Of a stretch of DNA of 64,000 bases, positions 26,568 to 40,566 are shown in pieces (position 1 is the stretch's first letter; the number at the start of each line of letters is the position of its first letter). Under the pieces are notes generated by a model. That model worked only from the letters and a program-made list of their open reading frames with translations. It searched no databases and was not told the DNA's origin. The DNA lies in the NCBI RefSeq assembly GCF_009649685.1, contig NZ_WJPK01000006.1, positions 124,001 to 188,000 of the forward strand, written 5' to 3'. A program made the translations under genes and the position numbers. This DNA is from Flavobacteriaceae bacterium EG-1. Its GTDB lineage: Bacteria > Bacteroidota > Bacteroidia > Flavobacteriales > Flavobacteriaceae.

Positions 26568-26780
26568 ATGAATTTTTCTAAATCTCTTTTACCCGTTTCT
26601 TGTTTTTTAATAATTCTATTTGCTTGTAAGAATAACCTTGAAGAAACAAAGCCTTCTAAAAGATATGAAGGAATTGAAAAAATGAAAAAGAAACACAAAG
26701 AAATTGATAGTATTAATTCTTTGAAAAATAAAAAACATAAGGAAGCTGACTCCCTAAAACCAGGTTTAGCCAACTTGTAA
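26568..26780 (+). CDS. Small lipoprotein
   Basis: A 70-residue protein with a lipoprotein signal (SLLPVSCFLIILFAC, cysteine at 20). The short mature part is very rich in lysine and glutamate (KKKHKEIDSINSLKNKKHKE), predicted helical. It begins 19 bp after waaA, so it is probably read from the same mRNA. I do not recognise a family. An antisense frame of similar length exists but has no signal or context. Confidence 0.6.
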   Translation: MNFSKSLLPVSCFLIILFACKNNLEETKPSKRYEGIEKMKKKHKEIDSINSLKNKKHKEADSLKPGLANL

Positions 26781-26841
26781 TTACATCCTTACTTGATTGC
26801 ATATTTATAGTTAGTTTTACTAAAGCCGTAAAACCAACTAG

Positions 26842-28199
26842 ATGAATTCAAAACTTTTTAGAATATCGCTGACAGCAGCTCTTTCCGGATTTTTATTTGG
26901 ATTTGATACTGTTGTAATATCTGGAGCAAACCTACCTATAAAAGAACTTTGGGATACTAGTCCATGGTTTCACGGCACTTTCATAATGTCTATGGCACTA
27001 TGGGGCACTGTACTTGGATCGCTTCTTGGAGGTATTCCTTGCGACCGTTTTGGAAGAAAAAAGACATTATTTTGGATTGGAATTCTTTACGCTGTTTCAG
27101 CCATCGGATCTGGAATTGCCACCGACCCCCTTATATGTTCTCCTTTTTTAGATTTATAGGTGGGCTAGGTTTTGGAGCATCTTCTGTAGCTGGACCAATA
27201 TACATTTCTGAAATTTCATCACCTGAAAACAGAGGAAAACTTGGAGCTCTCTACCAGTTTAATTTGGTTTTAGGTATTTTAATTGCTTTCATCTCTAATT
27301 ACTTATTACAAGGTGTAGGCGGAAGTAACGATTGGCGATGGATGCATGGGGTAGAAGCTATTCCCGCTTTATTGTACACACTTATGGTGATTAGCATCCC
27401 TAACAGTCCGAGATGGTTGGTAATTACCAAAAAAGATAATTCTGGAGCATTAAAAACTTTGAAGCTATTATATAATAATAAAGAAGCACAGCTAAAATTC
27501 GCTGAAATAGAAAAAAGCTTGTCCTATGGAACAGTAAAAGAAAAATTATTTTCGGGCAGATACAATAAACCATTGTTATTAGCTTTTTTAATCGCATTCT
27601 TTAATCAACTATCGGGCATCAATTTTATTCTATATTATGCTCCAGAAATATTAGAACGTGCAGGATTAGCCGCACAGGAGTCTTTATTTAGCTCTATAGC
27701 TATTGGAATTGTAAATTTAATTTTCACTTTCGTGGGTGTATGGCTAATAGATAAATTAGGAAGAAAACAATTGATGAAAATAGGTTCTTTTGGATACCTA
27801 ATTAGTCTTAGCATGGTTGGCTGGTGCTTTTATTCAGGTGCAAGCTCTACTTTATTATTAACCTTTATGCTAATATTTATCGCTTCGCATGCCGTAGGGC
27901 AAGGGGCAGTAATTTGGGTATTTATATCAGAGATTTTCCCGAATAAAGTAAGAGCCTACGGTCAATCTTGGGGCACAGGCACACATTGGGTTTTTGCAGC
28001 TACGATCACACTAATAACACCAATATTTTTGGATGCCGAACATGGAATTTTTAAAGACAATCCATGGCCCATTTTCATCTTTTTTGCTTTCATGATGTTT
28101 TTACAATTACTGTTTGTGCTTTTTATGATGCCTGAGACAAAAGGAGTATCTTTAGAAGAAATAAGTAAAAAGCTTAGTAGTGCAAAAGCCGAGGACTAG
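26842..28199 (+). pseudogene. MFS sugar porter (XylE/GalP type), frameshifted
   Basis: A sugar/proton symporter of the major facilitator superfamily, split by a frameshift near 27125-27140. The first frame (from ATG 26842) encodes helices 1-3 with GFLFGFDTVVISGA and DRFGRKKT, then runs off into PLICSPFLDL and stops at 27159. The rest continues in another frame, with FRFIGGLGFGASSVAGPIYI, PNSPRWL, INFILYYAPEI, DKLGRK and PETKGVSLEEI. The two parts together give about 452 residues, the normal family length. The break lies at a run of five C, so either one base lost or two gained explains it. This is a true mutation or a sequencing error; the remainder is intact. Confidence 0.88.
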
Positions 28200-28338: not shown

Positions 28339-28467
28339 ATGGAAACTGATATTACATTTGGAACCCGTCTTTTAAACGGATTTTTAAAAGTTATGGTCTT
28401 TTTTCTGGTTGTCACTTTAATTTCTGTCGTGGTAGGTCTTCTACTGGTCGGTGTTGGAGTACTTTAA
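28339..28467 (+). CDS. Single-pass membrane microprotein (42 aa)
   Basis: A short ORF with a consensus-like promoter upstream. It encodes a hydrophilic start (METDITFGTRLLNGFLK) followed by one long hydrophobic helix rich in valine and leucine (residues 18-42). No cysteines or charged C-terminus are present. It sits between the sugar transporter and a strong terminator on the same strand. The promoter, terminator and clean transmembrane topology support a real gene, but I recognise no family and cannot assign a function. Confidence 0.5.
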   Translation: METDITFGTRLLNGFLKVMVFFLVVTLISVVVGLLLVGVGVL

Positions 28468-33684: not shown

Positions 33685-33777
33685 CATTTTCCACCACAAA
33701 AAAGGGTCATTTCACATCAAAAAAGGACACAATTCACAACAAATAACCAAAGCAAGGCTTACTTCAATCTAACTTTG
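33685..33777 (+). promoter_or_regulatory. Promoter with three 21/22-bp spaced direct repeats, copy 1
   Basis: Three imperfect repeats of type CACnnC-AAAAAA-GG begin at 33692, 33713 and 33735, spaced 21 and 22 bp (two helix turns). They stop about 22 bp before TAACTTTG (33770-33777), a perfect TAnnTTTG -7 element. No -33 TTTG is present; the third repeat lies where it would be. This layout is expected of an activator-dependent promoter bound by a protein recognising direct repeats, such as a LytTR-type regulator (inference). It is repeated almost unchanged before the second peptide pair. Confidence 0.6.
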
Positions 33778-33801: not shown

Positions 33802-33975
33802 ATGTCAAATAAAATTAAAAGTTCATTGTTCTTAAGTTGTTTTATCGCAGTATTTGCAATTTATAATTTTACTATTACTGAGGGAGATAATAATTATAAT
33901 ACAATTGAATTCGCTCAAGCAGAACTAGATCAAGATATTCCTACATTAGAATTAGAAATTGAAGAAAACAAATAA
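33802..33975 (+). CDS. Micropeptide precursor 1 (57 aa)
   Basis: First of four paralogous short genes. The N-terminal block MSNKIKSSLFLSCFIA and YNF is shared by all four: two lysines, then a hydrophobic helix of about 15 residues with one conserved cysteine at position 13. The C-terminal 33 residues are acidic and unique to this copy (ending TLELEIEENK). This looks like an export signal or membrane anchor carrying a variable small domain. The cysteine context FLSC is a poor lipobox, and the hydrophobic stretch continues past it. It is preceded by a duplicated activator-type promoter and followed after 66 bp by copy 2. I recognise no known family. Confidence 0.7.
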   Translation: MSNKIKSSLFLSCFIAVFAIYNFTITEGDNNYNTIEFAQAELDQDIPTLELEIEENK

Positions 33976-34041
33976 CATATAACTTAACCTACTTATATAT
34001 CCCAACCTACTAACTAACCTAAATCAATAAAATCTCAAATC

Positions 34042-34218
34042 ATGTCAAACAAAATTAAAAGTTCTTTATTCTTAAGTTGTTTCATCGCAATGCTAACTAT
34101 ATATAACTTTAGCATCAATGAAACTGAAAATCAAATTAGCAATTCAAATGATATAGCTAAAACTGAAATCGTACAAGTGACCATGATTGATAACCTACAA
34201 TTCGAAGAAGTAAAATAA
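34042..34218 (+). CDS. Micropeptide precursor 2 (58 aa)
   Basis: Second paralogue, in the same transcript as copy 1 (66-bp gap, terminator only after this gene). It keeps the N-terminal block with cysteine 13 and the YNFSI junction. The variable tail ends IDNLQFEEVK, close to IDNLDFEESK in copy 3, although the middle of the tail differs. The codons of the first 16 residues are almost identical to the other copies, so the family arose by recent duplication. The function is unknown. Confidence 0.7.
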   Translation: MSNKIKSSLFLSCFIAMLTIYNFSINETENQISNSNDIAKTEIVQVTMIDNLQFEEVK

Positions 34219-34239
34219 ACCCAACAAATACCTACTTAC

Positions 34240-34271
34240 AAAAAGGGCTCAGATATATCTGAGCCCTTTTT
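34240..34271 (+). terminator. Terminator of micropeptide pair 1
   Basis: A strong stem AAAAGGGCTCAGAT and its complement with a tiny loop, then a T run, 22 bp after copy 2. Confidence 0.9.
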
Positions 34272-34584
34272 ATTTTGAAGATTTACATTGTTCTATGAAG
34301 CTTATTAATCCCTACTTAGACATAACTTCCTAATATGAGTACAATCAAAATATCTTTCAACAATTTATTTTAATGAACTATTTAACAAACTCACAACTAT
34401 AGAAAGACTATAACATTCTTATGTGTGATTAAGGATAATTCAGAATACCTTGTGAAGCAATTATCACTCCAATTAGCCAATGAAAATATTAGCATTATTT
34501 AAAACCGTAAAAACTTGTACAACCACACATCGTATAAATTAAACAGTTCACCCAAAGACCTATACAGCAAAGGGCTAGCACACA
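34272..34584. other. Spacer between the two micropeptide pairs
   Basis: An AT-rich stretch of about 310 bp with no ORF of note on either strand. Similarity to the region before copy 1 begins near 34585, with the duplicated promoter. Confidence 0.5.
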
Positions 34585-34677
34585 TTTTCGCCACCACAAA
34601 AAAGCATCATTTCACATCAAAAAAGGGTGACTTTCACAACAAATAACCAAAGCAAGGCTTACTTCAATCTAACTTTG
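34585..34677 (+). promoter_or_regulatory. Promoter with three direct repeats, copy 2
   Basis: A near-exact duplicate of 33685-33777. The repeats begin at 34592, 34613 and 34635, and the -7 TAACTTTG is at 34670-34677. The last 66 bp before the ATG (from about 34636) are identical to copy 1. The bases between the repeats have changed while the repeat cores are kept, which argues for selection on them. Confidence 0.6.
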
Positions 34678-34701
34678 AATCAGAATTAAAAAACCCAAAT
34701 C

Positions 34702-34878
34702 ATGTCAAATAAAATTAAAAGTTCATTATTCTTAAGTTGTTTTATCGCTGTATTTACAATTTATAATTTCAGCTTAACTGAGGCAGAGAATACTTATACC
34801 AATTCTAGCGAAATTGTTAATGCCGAATTTGACAATTTAACAGCAATCGACAATTTAGATTTTGAAGAATCCAAATAA
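34702..34878 (+). CDS. Micropeptide precursor 3 (58 aa)
   Basis: Third paralogue with the common N-terminal block, cysteine 13 and YNFSLTEAEN at the junction. The tail contains NSSEIVNAEFDNLTAIDNL and ends FEESK. It is the first gene of the second pair, 63 bp before copy 4. The tail is acidic, with no further cysteine and no double-glycine cleavage site. No homologue is known to me. Confidence 0.7.
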   Translation: MSNKIKSSLFLSCFIAVFTIYNFSLTEAENTYTNSSEIVNAEFDNLTAIDNLDFEESK

Positions 34879-34941
34879 AAAATTTAGTATCACCTACTTT
34901 CTTTAACCATCCCATTTTAACCAAACTAAAAACCCCAAATA

Positions 34942-35112
34942 ATGTCAAATAAAATTAAAAGCTCATTATTCTTAAGTTGTTTTATCGCTGCCTTCACCAT
35001 ATATAATTTTAGTATTACAGAAACAAATACCAACGTTACTGCCGAAATTGCAATTGCAGAACTTAACCAAATACCAACAACAAACTACCTTCAAGACGAA
35101 GACCTAAATTAA
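34942..35112 (+). CDS. Micropeptide precursor 4 (56 aa)
   Basis: Fourth paralogue. It shares the N-terminal block and cysteine 13 with the others, then has the most divergent tail (ETNTNVTAEIAIAELNQIP, ending QDEDLN). It ends 19 bp before a strong terminator. It is the second gene of pair 2, mirroring the two-gene layout of pair 1. Confidence 0.68.
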   Translation: MSNKIKSSLFLSCFIAAFTIYNFSITETNTNVTAEIAIAELNQIPTTNYLQDEDLN

Positions 35113-35131
35113 ACCAGAACAAAACCTACTT

Positions 35132-35168
35132 AAAAAAAGGACTCAAAATAAACTTGAGTCCTTTTTTT
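35132..35168 (+). terminator. Terminator of micropeptide pair 2
   Basis: A 15-bp stem AAAAAAAGGACTCAA with its complement around a 7-base loop, ending in a T run. Confidence 0.9.
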
Positions 35169-35320: not shown

Positions 35321-38300
35321 ATGAACACCAAGTACACCAATAGGTTTAAGAATAATATTTTAAAACCTATCACTGCTTATTTCAAAATTAAAGACAAACC
35401 ACTTAAAATAAGTGGAATTCTGTTTTTATTACTGATATTTCTGTCAATTTCAACAATACAAGCACAATGTAGCTCCGAACCTTTTCCTAACCAATGGACT
35501 GTTCATGAATATCAAACTAATCCTTATACGGCTATTTACACCTTTGCCAGATATGATTTAGATGGTGATGGTCTTAACGACATTGTTACCGGTGGATGGT
35601 GGTATAAAAACTCAGGAAACGCCTCCGATAATTGGACAAAAAACACTATAGGTAGAAACTTCGGAAATATTGCTCATGTTCATGACTTTGATAATGACGG
35701 CGATATGGATTTATTAGGTACGACTTTAGGACCCTCAGGAAAAGAGTATCAAAGCGTTCAACTTGTATGGGCCGAAAATGATGGTACTGGAATTTTTACA
35801 TTACATACTAATTTGCCAACTATTACAAGTTCATGGTCCGAACCATTTTTAGCGGGATTAGCAGGAGGCAACTTTGGTACAGGAGGTACTTATCAAATGG
35901 CAATAAACTGGAATGGCGCAGAGAAAACACATGAACCCATTCAGTTGTTAACCCCAACAGCGAATCCAACAACGGGAACATGGAGTTTAGAAGATATAAG
36001 TAATGATTCTTCTGGAGAAGACCTTCAAGCTGCTGACATAGACAATGATGGTGATTTAGATCTTTTTCAAGGTGTCAATTGGTTAGAGAATAACGGCTCA
36101 GGTGTTTTTACTACACATTCAACAGGTTTAAGCTATGGTAGCACACCAGACCGAGCACAATTGGCAGATTTTGATAAAGACGGTGATTTAGATGCTGTAG
36201 TAGGTCAATTAGGGTATGGATCTGATCCAAATAGGTATGATTTAGCTTGGTTTGAGGCACCAGAGGATCCAACTGAAACCTGGACTAAACACTTATTATC
36301 TACTGACGTTCATGGGAGTTTAAGTGTATTTGCTGCTGATATTGATTTTGATGGTGACGAAGATATAATCGTTGGTGAATGGTTAGGTTCAAGAAGATTA
36401 ATGGCATTCGAAAATAATTTATGTAATAATGAAGATTGGGAAATGCATGTCATAGATGATAGTCCTCAAAATTGGGAACATCATGACGGAGCTCGAGTGA
36501 TAGATATAGACAATGATGGAGATTTAGATATTGTTTCCAATGGATTTAAAAATCAAAAAGTAGTTAGAATTTATGAAAACTTATCTAGTGTAGTCGCAAA
36601 TAGCCAACCAATAGCAAATGCTGGCAACAACAAAACTATTACATTACCAACCAATGCTATTACAATAAATGGAACTGGTAATGACCCTGATGGTGGAAAC
36701 ATTTCTTATTCTTGGTCGCAGACAAGTGGACCTTCAACAGCAAATTTATCCAACTCATTAACTGCAAATTTAACCGCAGACAATTTAGTTGAAGGAACTT
36801 ATATTTTTCGCTTAACTATTACAGATGATGAAAATGACACTGATTTTGATGAGATGTCTGTTACGATTAACCCAGAACAAAATACTGACATACCTCTAGT
36901 AAATGCAGGAAGTAATCAGACTATTATGCTGCCCACTAACAGCATCATATTATACGGATCGGGAAGCGATCCTGATGGTGGCGCCATAACATACGAATGG
37001 ACGCAAATTAGTGGACCGAATACAGCTGTTTTAAATAATGAAAATACTACTGAATTAACTGCAAGTGAATTAATTGAAGGCACATATGTTTTTCGATTAA
37101 ATATTACTGACAATGAAAATGATTCAGCTTTTGACGATGTTACTTTAGTTGTTTCTCCACAGGAAAACACCGATTTACCATTAGCAAATGCAGGAAGCGA
37201 TCAAACTATTTTGCTACCCATCAATAGTATCACATTAAATGGTTCGGGAAGCGACCCTGATGGTGGTACCATAACATACGAATGGACGCAAATTAGTGGA
37301 CCGAATACTGCTGCTTTAACTAATGAAAATACTACTGACTTAACTGCAAGTGAATTAATTGAAGGCACATACGTTTTTCGATTAACTATTACTGACAATG
37401 AAAATGATTCAGCTTTTGACGATGTTACTTTAATTGTTTCTCCACAAGAAAATACTGACATGCTAATTGTAAATGCAGGAAGCGATCAAACTATTTTGCT
37501 ACCCACAAATAGTATCACATTAAATGGTTCGGGAAGCGATCCTGATGGTGGCACCACTACTTTTGAATGGACACAAATTAGTGGACCGAATACAGCCGTT
37601 TTAACTAATGAAAATACTACTGACTTAACTGCAAGTGAATTAATTGAAGGCACATACGTTTTTCGATTAACTATTACTGACAATGAAAATGATTCAGCTT
37701 TTGACGATGTTACTTTAGTTGTTTCTCCACAAGAAAATACTGACATTCTAATTGTAAATGCAGGAAGTGATCAAACTATTTTGTTACCCACCAATAGTAT
37801 CACATTAAACGGTACGGGAAGCGATTCTGATAGTGGCTCCATAACTTTCGAGTGGACGCAAATTAGTGGCCCGAATACAGCTATTTTAACTAATGAAAAT
37901 ACTACAGACTTAACTGCAAGTGAATTAATTGAAGGGACTTATGTTTTTCAATTAACAGGAGCTGATAATGAAAACCAATCAGCATCAGACGAGGTTTCTG
38001 TATTTGTTTCTGCTACAAATTCATTAAACCAAGACCCTATTGCTATTTTAAATGCTGATGTTATCTCTGGTCCTAATCCATTGACAGTACACTTCACAGG
38101 TAGCAATTCTACAGATGACGGGACAATAGCTACTTATTCTTGGGATTTTGGAAATGATGATACAAGCTTTGTTGAAAACCCAAGTTATACCTTTACAACT
38201 AACGGTACTTTTGAAGTTATTTTAACCGTAACTGACACAGATGGCAATTCAAACGCTTCTTCTATCAGCATAACAGTTACAGCTTCTGAAACCACTTTAG

Positions 38301-38569
38301 ATTCTGAAATTGTTTTAGAAGTGAATCCTGCAAAGGAAGGCAAAGCACGTATTCTTCTACTTAACAAACCAGCTGAAACGACTATAATTTCGCTACACTT
38401 ATATGATTCTGCAGGTCGAATTATAAAGACATTTAATCCGCAAACGGTTGCAACCGGAAACAATACTTATGAGTTACCTATTTCAACGCTACGAGATGGT
38501 TTATACTATATAAGTATAGACTTAAATAATGGCGAATATGAAGCATTAAGTTTGATAATTAAAAATTAA
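35321..38569 (+). CDS. T9SS-exported FG-GAP / Ig-like repeat / PKD protein
   Basis: A 1082-residue protein from ATG 35321; a TTG nine codons earlier is less likely. A long N-terminus with a signal helix (ISGILFLLLIFLSISTIQAQ) is followed by an FG-GAP/VCBS propeller (to about residue 425; loops such as DLDGDGLNDIVTGG and DIDNDGDLDLFQG). Next are five 95-residue PKD/REJ-like beta-sandwich repeats (285 bp each, about 36598-38024) and one canonical PKD domain (SWDFGNDDTSF). The last 80 residues are a type IX secretion sorting domain (LHLYDSAGRIIKTF, GLYYISI). It is therefore an extracellular or surface-anchored adhesin or glycan-binding protein. No catalytic motif is visible. Confidence 0.9.
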   Translation: MNTKYTNRFKNNILKPITAYFKIKDKPLKISGILFLLLIFLSISTIQAQCSSEPFPNQWTVHEYQTNPYTAIYTFARYDLDGDGLNDIVTGGWWYKNSGNASDNWTKNTIGRNFGNIAHVHDFDNDGDMDLLGTTLGPSGKEYQSVQLVWAENDGTGIFTLHTNLPTITSSWSEPFLAGLAGGNFGTGGTYQMAINWNGAEKTHEPIQLLTPTANPTTGTWSLEDISNDSSGEDLQAADIDNDGDLDLFQGVNWLENNGSGVFTTHSTGLSYGSTPDRAQLADFDKDGDLDAVVGQLGYGSDPNRYDLAWFEAPEDPTETWTKHLLSTDVHGSLSVFAADIDFDGDEDIIVGEWLGSRRLMAFENNLCNNEDWEMHVIDDSPQNWEHHDGARVIDIDNDGDLDIVSNGFKNQKVVRIYENLSSVVANSQPIANAGNNKTITLPTNAITINGTGNDPDGGNISYSWSQTSGPSTANLSNSLTANLTADNLVEGTYIFRLTITDDENDTDFDEMSVTINPEQNTDIPLVNAGSNQTIMLPTNSIILYGSGSDPDGGAITYEWTQISGPNTAVLNNENTTELTASELIEGTYVFRLNITDNENDSAFDDVTLVVSPQENTDLPLANAGSDQTILLPINSITLNGSGSDPDGGTITYEWTQISGPNTAALTNENTTDLTASELIEGTYVFRLTITDNENDSAFDDVTLIVSPQENTDMLIVNAGSDQTILLPTNSITLNGSGSDPDGGTTTFEWTQISGPNTAVLTNENTTDLTASELIEGTYVFRLTITDNENDSAFDDVTLVVSPQENTDILIVNAGSDQTILLPTNSITLNGTGSDSDSGSITFEWTQISGPNTAILTNENTTDLTASELIEGTYVFQLTGADNENQSASDEVSVFVSATNSLNQDPIAILNADVISGPNPLTVHFTGSNSTDDGTIATYSWDFGNDDTSFVENPSYTFTTNGTFEVILTVTDTDGNSNASSISITVTASETTLDSEIVLEVNPAKEGKARILLLNKPAETTIISLHLYDSAGRIIKTFNPQTVATGNNTYELPISTLRDGLYYISIDLNNGEYEALSLIIKN
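36598..38024 (+). repeat. Five tandem 285-bp coding repeats
   Basis: The anchor AAATGC(A/T)GG recurs with its G at 36620, 36905, 37190, 37475 and 37760, exactly 285 bp apart. Repeats 3 and 4 are nearly identical in DNA, while repeat 1 is the most diverged. Each encodes one 95-residue domain of the T9SS protein. Confidence 0.92.
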
Positions 38570-38763: not shown

Positions 38764-39207
38764 ATGAAAAAAGCAATAATAGTAATGATGTTATTAGTGG
38801 GTGTAACCACAATAGCACAAGAGCGAAAAGAGAGACCTAATAGAGGTAATATGAAGGATTTAACAGCTGAACAGATTGCTACTCTGCAAACTAAAAAAAT
38901 GACCTTAGCCTTAGATCTATCTAGTAAACAACAAACACAGATTCAAGCTATTAATCTTGAACAAGCTACTATCAGAAAGGCTAAAATGACTGAAAGAAAA
39001 GAGGCTAGAGAAAATGGTGAACGTAAAAAACCAACTAGTGAAGAACGATATGCAATGCAAAATGAACGTTTGGACGCTCAAATTGCTCTTAAGTCTGAAA
39101 TGAAAAGTATTCTTTCTGATGAACAATATAACAAATGGGAGAAAATGAGACACCACAAGAAAAAAAGAGGTGAAGAAAAAGGCAAGAAAAATGCCAAAAG
39201 AAAATAG
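38764..39207 (+). CDS. Spy/CpxP-like or DUF4890-type periplasmic protein
   Basis: A 147-residue exported protein with a signal peptide (IIVMMLLVGVTTIAQ). The mature part is a helical, highly charged segment starting with DLTAEQIATLQTKKMTLALD. This resembles the LTxxQ pattern of Spy/CpxP chaperones and the DUF4890 proteins of Bacteroidota. The end is lysine/glutamate-rich (HHKKKRGEEKGKKNAKRK). It probably acts in the periplasm, perhaps in stress or metal response, which is inference. It is a single-gene unit flanked by hairpins. Confidence 0.7.
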   Translation: MKKAIIVMMLLVGVTTIAQERKERPNRGNMKDLTAEQIATLQTKKMTLALDLSSKQQTQIQAINLEQATIRKAKMTERKEARENGERKKPTSEERYAMQNERLDAQIALKSEMKSILSDEQYNKWEKMRHHKKKRGEEKGKKNAKRK

Positions 39208-39285: not shown

Positions 39286-40566
39286 TTAAAGAGACAACTG
39301 CTCTACTGCTCTTATTGTAGCGTCTAAATCTTCATATGAAAGTGCATCATTTAAAAAATAACTTTCAAAAGCACTTGGTGGCAGATAAATACCTTGATCC
39401 AACATTCCATGAAAGTACTTCTTAAAAGTATCATTATTACCCTTGGCGGAAGTTTCAAAATTTATAACTGGCTCATCCGTAAAATGCACAGAAATCATAC
39501 TTCCATATCTATTAATTTGATAAGGAATTTTCTTTTCTAATAATGCTTGCTCTAAACCATCATGTAAGTAAGCGGTTTTATTTGCTAGACTTTCAAAAAC
39601 TTCTGGCTTATTATTTAACTCCGTTAACATTGCTAAACCAGCACTCATCGCTAAAGGGTTTCCGCTTAAAGTTCCTGCTTGGTACACTGGGCCATCTGGA
39701 GCCAAATAAGACATTATTTCATTATTTGCTGCAAAAGCACCTACAGGCAAACCTCCACCTATAACTTTACCAAAACACATAATATCTGCATCAATTGCTA
39801 ATGCTTCTTGCGCTCCGCCCTTGCCTAATCTAAAACCTGTCATTACCTCATCAAAAATCAACAGAATATCATTTTGAGTACACAGTAATCTTAATCCTTG
39901 AATAAAATCATCTGATGGAATAATACAGCCCATATTACCGGCTACTGGTTCAATAATAACTGCTGCAATTTCTTTAGAATTAGCGCTCACTAGTGCTTCT
40001 ACACTCGCCAAATCATTATAATTAGCTAATAATGTGTCTTTTGCTGTACCCTGTGTTACCCCTGGGCTATTTGGACTACCAAAAGTAACTGCTCCACTAC
40101 CAGCTTGTATTAAAAAAGAATCTGAATGGCCATGATAACAACCAGCAAACTTAATTATTTTATCTTTTCCTGTATATCCACGAGCTAATCTTACGGCACT
40201 CATACATGCTTCTGTTCCACTATTAACAAATCGAATTTTGTCAATATTTGGCACCATTGAAACTGCTAACCTCGCTAGCTCAGTCTCTATTTCTGTAGGC
40301 ATACCAAAAGAAGTTCCTTTTTTAGCTTTATCAACAACTGCATTAATTACCGGTTCATAAGCATGACCTAATATTAAAGGACCCCAAGATGCTATATAAT
40401 CAATCAATCGATTATCATCCTCATCATAGAGATAAGCCCCTTTCGCTTCTTTAACAAATATTGGAGTACCACCTACGGATTTAAATGCGCGAACTGGGGA
40501 ATTTACGCCACCAGGTATATACTTTTTAGCTTCTGAGAATAAAGCACTACTACGTTTATAAATCAT
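39286..40566 (-). CDS. hemL: Glutamate-1-semialdehyde 2,1-aminomutase
   Basis: PLP enzyme that moves the amino group of glutamate-1-semialdehyde to form 5-aminolevulinate, the tetrapyrrole precursor. The 426-residue length is standard. The start is [20 protein letters not shown]. The PLP aspartate is in [19 protein letters not shown]. The catalytic lysine is in [16 protein letters not shown], and [17 protein letters not shown] binds the phosphate. No other heme genes are adjacent. Confidence 0.96.

Follow-up and report, generated by a model that had tools for sequence, protein, structure and literature searches.

An unnamed family of predicted single-pass membrane proteins and its direct-repeat promoter in Flavobacteriaceae

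Introduction

MgrB of Escherichia coli, a protein of 47 aa, exerts feedback inhibition on the sensor kinase PhoQ. LytTR proteins act at paired, regularly spaced sites, AlgR being an example. FopS of Bacteroides is said to consist of paralogous sRNAs associated with the RNA-binding protein RbpB. One article terms YpdB a LytTR-type response regulator (PMC4847170).

In Bacteroidota, small RNAs and membrane proteins of very small size have been poorly mapped so far. Here we describe a family of small flavobacterial proteins, its synteny, the purifying selection acting on it, and the promoter architecture and terminators of its genes. The window, which is the whole stretch of 64,000 nucleotides analysed, belongs to a 4.45-Mb genome congeneric with Aurantibacter crassamenti HG732 (Flavobacteriaceae).

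Results

Four small genes in two pairs

The window carries four ORFs of 56–58 codons with a common start, arranged in two pairs with a strong terminator each (Table 1). A sequence-only reading of this DNA had described them in this way, and the coordinates and the folding agreed. Residues 1–16 did not differ among the four copies when the proteins were compared, and the first 48 nt were about 90–98% identical as read from the DNA. The C-terminal halves were dissimilar.

The approximately 110 bp located 5' of copy 1 and of copy 3 were almost the same sequence. Copies 2 and 4 were preceded by a short spacer, without the 110-bp region found before the other two. Judging from the near-identical upstream regions of copies 1 and 3, the two pairs look like a duplication.

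Elsewhere in the window, a 42-aa ORF on the forward strand (28339–28467; METDITFGTRLLNGFLKVMVFFLVVTLISVVVGLLLVGVGVL) was followed by its own terminator-like hairpin and may encode a further single-TM small protein. A sugar-porter-like MFS gene on the same strand (about 26700–28199) appeared frameshifted; the start of the ORF was unlike a transporter, and the conserved part came later.

Table 1. Positions of the small genes, their signals and syntenic neighbours in the window
Feature	Position	Strand	Remarks
Promoter region, pair 1	33693–33777	+	ACCACAAAAAA (from 33693), TTCACATCAA 33711–33720, TTCACAACAA 33733–33742, 27 bp, TAACTTTG 33770–33777
Copy 1	33802–33975	+	57 aa; pair 1, first gene; single-TM small protein
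ACCTACTT motif after copy 1	33987–33994	+	
Copy 2	34042–34218	+	58 aa; pair 1, second gene
ACCTACTT motif directly 5' of terminator 1	34230–34237	+	
Intrinsic terminator, pair 1	34240–34271	+	fold z = -6.2, 0 shuffles as good
Promoter region, pair 2	34593–34677	+	TTCACATCAA 34611–34620, TTCACAACAA 34633–34642, TAACTTTG 34670–34677
Copy 3	34702–34878	+	58 aa; pair 2, first gene
ACCTACTT motif after copy 3	34892–34899	+	
Copy 4	34942–35112	+	56 aa; pair 2, second gene
ACCTACTT motif directly 5' of terminator 2	35124–35131	+	
Intrinsic terminator, pair 2	35132–35168	+	fold z = -6.4, 0 shuffles as good
FG-GAP/PKD protein	35321–38569	+	T9SS C-terminal sorting signal; in Aurantibacter, between small genes and LTXXQ gene
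147-aa exported protein, syntenic	38764–39207	+	orthologue of LTXXQ (Spy/CpxP-like)
Class III aminotransferase, syntenic	39286–40566	-	'hemL' from sequence and conserved neighbourhood

Spread and synteny of the family

The small proteins matched no family above the curated cut-off in Pfam or NCBIfam, which bore out the earlier statement that no named family fits. The profile search for relatives proposed at the time was run on Flavobacteriaceae, with one genome per species and a profile made from close copies and from weak matches that turned out to be syntenic. The family was recovered in 69 of 397 genomes (42 of 237 genera), and the ORF length was conserved across genera. This recovery showed that the four-gene cluster was more than chance. 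We have high confidence that the peptides form a genuine, hitherto unnamed family, not an orphan cluster. When sampling was widened to the order, a single marginal match came from outside Flavobacteriaceae. Carrier genomes had mostly one copy, and occasionally two or three.

In A. crassamenti HG732, a single pair was found at the matching location, with glgB on one side and the FG-GAP/PKD gene on the other; the LTXXQ-type gene and then hemL came next. The usual order in other genera was an SLC13-like transporter gene, a DUF4953 Met-zincin protease gene, the small gene, the LTXXQ gene and hemL. The most constant neighbour was the LTXXQ-type (Spy/CpxP-like) gene, an assignment that comes from a weak Pfam match of an orthologue (E 4e-4, under the curated cut-off); the window's own 147-aa copy gave no Pfam match at 0.01. 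The second copy present in some genomes adjoined or lay near a BCCT transporter gene, and in G003 and G447 it also adjoined a kinase and LytTR regulator pair (domains shown for G003).

The promoters and the single pair of A. crassamenti suggest that a pair arose first and that the pair was then duplicated. A tree built from the copies had poor support.

These neighbourhoods raise the question of a small regulatory subunit of the adjoining transporter, comparable to AcrZ or KdpF, which would serve the SLC13-like protein at the main locus and the BCCT protein at the second. A conserved 476-aa SLC13-like gene, named from its sequence without a Pfam check, does lie near many copies, as the BCCT gene does at the second locus. 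The Aurantibacter copies, however, are flanked by glgB and the FG-GAP/PKD gene, and neither of the two transporter genes adjoins them. We consider such a subunit rather improbable.

Protein features and selection

Forty-seven distinct members were compared, in which basic residues at positions 4 and 6 are fixed by the sequence pattern used to choose them. The start followed the consensus M-S-x-K-[ILV]-K-S-x-[LV]-Y-x-x-x-F. S7 was invariant, and Y21, F14 and Y10 were conserved in 98, 91 and 85%, respectively. The two lysines were followed by a hydrophobic segment some 16 residues long and then by an acidic tail, of which the motif E-[IM]-A-x-A-[DE]-[IL]-x-Q was partly kept across genera. AlphaFold2 modelled the hydrophobic part confidently as a helix (pLDDT 91 in block 11–20) and the tail with low confidence. 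From the helix and the charge pattern, we predict with moderate confidence a single pass with the N-terminus in the cytoplasm and the tail in the periplasm.

Pooled pN/pS for the seven Aurantibacter copies was 0.15 in codons 1–23 and 0.54 in the tail, figures that come from small samples with silent sites close to saturation. One copy pair had a tail pN/pS of about 1. For most paralogue pairs, pS in codons 1–23 was 0.49–0.77; it was 0.24 for copies 1 and 3 only. Because the silent sites of most pairs are far diverged, the N-terminal identity reflects selection on the protein and not recency. The peptide start is under strong purifying selection, and the tail is under relaxed purifying selection.

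These results supported a conserved membrane anchor in real genes, as had been supposed, with one hydrophobic helix and purifying selection on the start. The proposal of a fixed N-terminal half and a variable tail held only in part: residues 1–16 are identical and the C-terminal halves differ, but the tails keep an acidic motif that is present in other genera. A diversified tail was not supported. The comparison that had been suggested for detecting diversifying selection revealed no excess of replacement changes in the tails, and the pooled value of 0.54 is that of relaxed purifying selection.

The conserved start and divergent tail had been read as the mark of a secreted, diversified peptide serving as a signal, a bacteriocin or a self-recognition factor, and the tandem copies would also fit one. 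Such a peptide is most unlikely here. Diversifying selection is lacking and the tail motif is kept; the gene is usually single-copy and has a fixed, syntenic place. There was no shared signal-peptidase site, since the most plausible site in copy 1, at residue 19, appears from comparison of the copies to be threonine in copies 2–4. No exporter, immunity or processing gene was recognised among the neighbours read.

A lipoprotein anchored through Cys13 was also considered and rejected. Bacteroidota lipoboxes are relaxed, and S12–C13 follows a short hydrophobic run. On the other hand, the run continues past this point to about residue 23, and the cysteine is present in just 23 of the 47 members, which makes lipid attachment unlikely; the other 24 keep the remaining motif, mostly with A, S, G or T at this position. 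We find this anchoring scarcely credible.

A direct-repeat promoter before the pairs

The promoter core consisted of two TTCACA[AT]CAA repeats at a 22-bp period, followed by 27 bp and then TAACTTTG, which we take to fit the flavobacterial -7 box, TAnnTTTG. The conserved region that holds this core lay 5' of copies 1 and 3, and it likewise preceded the pair in A. crassamenti and the copy in genome G001. Within the 64-kb window, the pattern occurred only at the two sites before pairs 1 and 2.

Over eight genomes, the double-repeat pattern gave 19 matches, compared with 0 for the reversed control. A looser form of the motif preceded 29 of the 47 small genes, compared with 0.18 expected from shuffles (shuffle maximum 2); the 47 upstream regions include close relatives, so 29 is not a count of independent events. 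A sigma-70-type scan detected promoter-like sites on neither strand above the level of shuffles, as expected for flavobacterial promoters. The promoter is new in this work, and our confidence that it is conserved is high. A literature search returned nothing on the CACAACA motif or on the ncRNA-like units described below.

Genes and putative RNAs under the promoter

The same promoter was found in four further settings; the counts in the window's own genome rest on pattern searches. The first class (a) was made up of tandem units of about 150–180 nt that had no conserved ORF and in many cases followed hflX; they carried CCCCAAAT segments and, immediately before the terminator, ACCTACTT. A sequence-only model detected these ncRNA-like units in 12 of 99 relatives. 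They had no Rfam match near the gathering score, and an Rfam scan of the window returned only tRNAs. At L085:8233–9110 (G000:C3, about 620232–621109), three tandem ncRNA-like units followed hflX; each had a CACAACA promoter and a terminator, and contained CCCCAAAT-like segments and a CTACTT element.

Class (b) was a conserved ORF of about 33–35 aa (MEAQMNHPQEEIQVYKNDFISGIVMLTKKLFML and variants) with the same promoter, 3' of the CoA-transferase B gene. It lay immediately 3' of the site at 1501 in L119, L120, L127 and L133.

In class (c), the strict double-repeat pattern was located between a LytTR response-regulator gene and the downstream gene in three genomes (G001, G002 and G034). The regulator gene was just 5' of the site, and the downstream gene, where fully read, was a TPR-HisKA_2 kinase gene. 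The window's genome had a degenerate version of this site. At L195 and L196, the CACAACA promoter was seen between LytTR response-regulator and TPR-HisKA_2 kinase genes. The position of the promoter inside the LytTR pair suggests feedback control of that system.

Class (d) consisted of genes that encode PAS proteins or exported proteins of large size, and was found with a shorter single-repeat pattern that gives some chance matches. In four genomes (L091, L092, L097 and L104), PAS-domain or similar sensor-like genes had CACAACA-N28-TA[CG]TTTAGTA directly 5' of the start. Because this promoter type precedes genes for large exported proteins as well, regulon membership says little on molecular function.

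The small genes thus have a promoter architecture in common with a LytTR system. The LytTR response regulator is the likeliest activator, since the kinase gene has the same promoter and the regulator gene lies just 5' of it. The second-locus copies of G003 and G447, with their adjoining kinase and LytTR regulator pair, point to the same link. From these sequences, the chance that a LytTR protein regulates the promoters directly is about even. The papers searched did not present CACAACA as a LytTR box, we know of no such box, and the regulator could be another protein.

Small proteins and ncRNA units were present in the same 11 genomes among G000–G059, with one weak extra ncRNA match in G059. 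Ten of the 11 were on top of a ranking by AlaRS identity, and the last was at rank 12. Co-occurrence was therefore treated as a clade trait and dropped as independent evidence of a functional link.

Likeness between the small mRNAs and the ncRNA units

CCTACTT was found no more than 150 nt past the stop in 23 of the 47 small genes, compared with 0.83 in shuffles, and typically abutted the terminator. This 3' end was common to the small-protein mRNAs and the ncRNA units. A CCCCAAAT-like sequence stood directly 5' of the ATG in many family members, and the units and the small mRNAs had 9-mers in common in the same sense. The ncRNA model, run on the window, gave no match. The small mRNAs thus share modules with the units, not overall similarity.

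With the promoter also in common, these likenesses are consistent with RNA being the main product, or one of two. The mRNAs would then belong to the same class as the units downstream of hflX and act via CCCCAAAT and ACCTACTT, either through pairing or through a single RNA-binding protein to which they bind, the peptide being secondary. The common motifs, however, are short and could signal RNA ends or stability. The strong purifying selection on the start and the conserved ORF length indicate that the peptide matters. We regard an RNA role of this kind as possible but unlikely. It is similarly doubtful that the regulon comprises RNAs of one modular kind, some non-coding and others in which the same 5' and 3' segments enclose the ORF of a small membrane protein, in which case the mRNAs would be dual-function and the two forms evolutionarily interconvertible.

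Small single-TM proteins in tandem, with ncRNA units in the same regulon, also resemble type I toxins, that is, small hydrophobic membrane proteins silenced by RNA. Pairing between the ncRNA units and the small mRNAs was not above shuffles, promoter-like sites were not in excess on either strand, and no antisense or complementary RNA partner was found. The chromosomal position is kept across genera, with one copy in most genomes. A type I toxin is very unlikely.

Discussion

The best explanation of the whole, to which we assign a probability of roughly 0.5, is that the genes, duplicated in Aurantibacter, encode an accessory protein that crosses the inner membrane once and serves an envelope regulon linked to LytTR. 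Each gene would give an inner-membrane protein of 56–58 aa whose lysines 4 and 6 are cytoplasmic; one helix, at about residues 8–23, would be followed by a short acidic tail on the periplasmic side. The protein represents in Aurantibacter the unnamed family, which belongs to a single clade of Flavobacteriaceae. The usual state is one gene 5' of the LTXXQ (Spy/CpxP-like) gene and hemL. A. crassamenti has one pair, and the window's genome has this pair twice, both times complete with promoter and terminator.

The promoters would belong to one conserved regulon, in which direct repeats of the CACAACA type, two or three of them with a period of about 22 bp, lie 27 bp 5' of a TAnnTTTG-type box, and a LytTR response regulator would probably activate them. 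The protein may modulate a membrane partner, a sensor kinase or a transporter, in that envelope response, as an accessory or feedback component in the manner of MgrB. We have low confidence in any named partner. The small genes are more likely parts of envelope regulation than secreted signals or bacteriocins.

The promoter signature can be tested, and in flavobacteria it connects an unnamed protein family and an ncRNA family without an Rfam match with a two-component system of the LytTR type and with genes that encode large exported proteins. It also offers a cheap route to more members that needs nothing but sequence.

Comparison with known systems

Like MgrB, the protein described here is small and predicted to be single-pass, with a cytoplasmic N-terminus and a periplasmic tail, and its gene lies in an apparent two-component regulon. 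The likeness is one of description: the periplasmic cysteines of MgrB are absent from the tails, no sequence relation was seen, and the partner kinase is putative. The Spy/CpxP (LTXXQ) envelope-stress proteins enter through the neighbour of the small gene, which is of the LTXXQ type; the small protein itself is unrelated to them.

The ncRNA-like units resemble the FopS sRNAs, again by description, as paralogous small-RNA families in Bacteroidota. Unlike FopS, they share promoter and 3' end with protein-coding mRNAs, and they have no Rfam match. The CACAACA repeat is not known to us as a LytTR box, and binding to it is putative. As in LytTR regulons, a LytTR regulator and kinase pair has the same promoter as the small genes.
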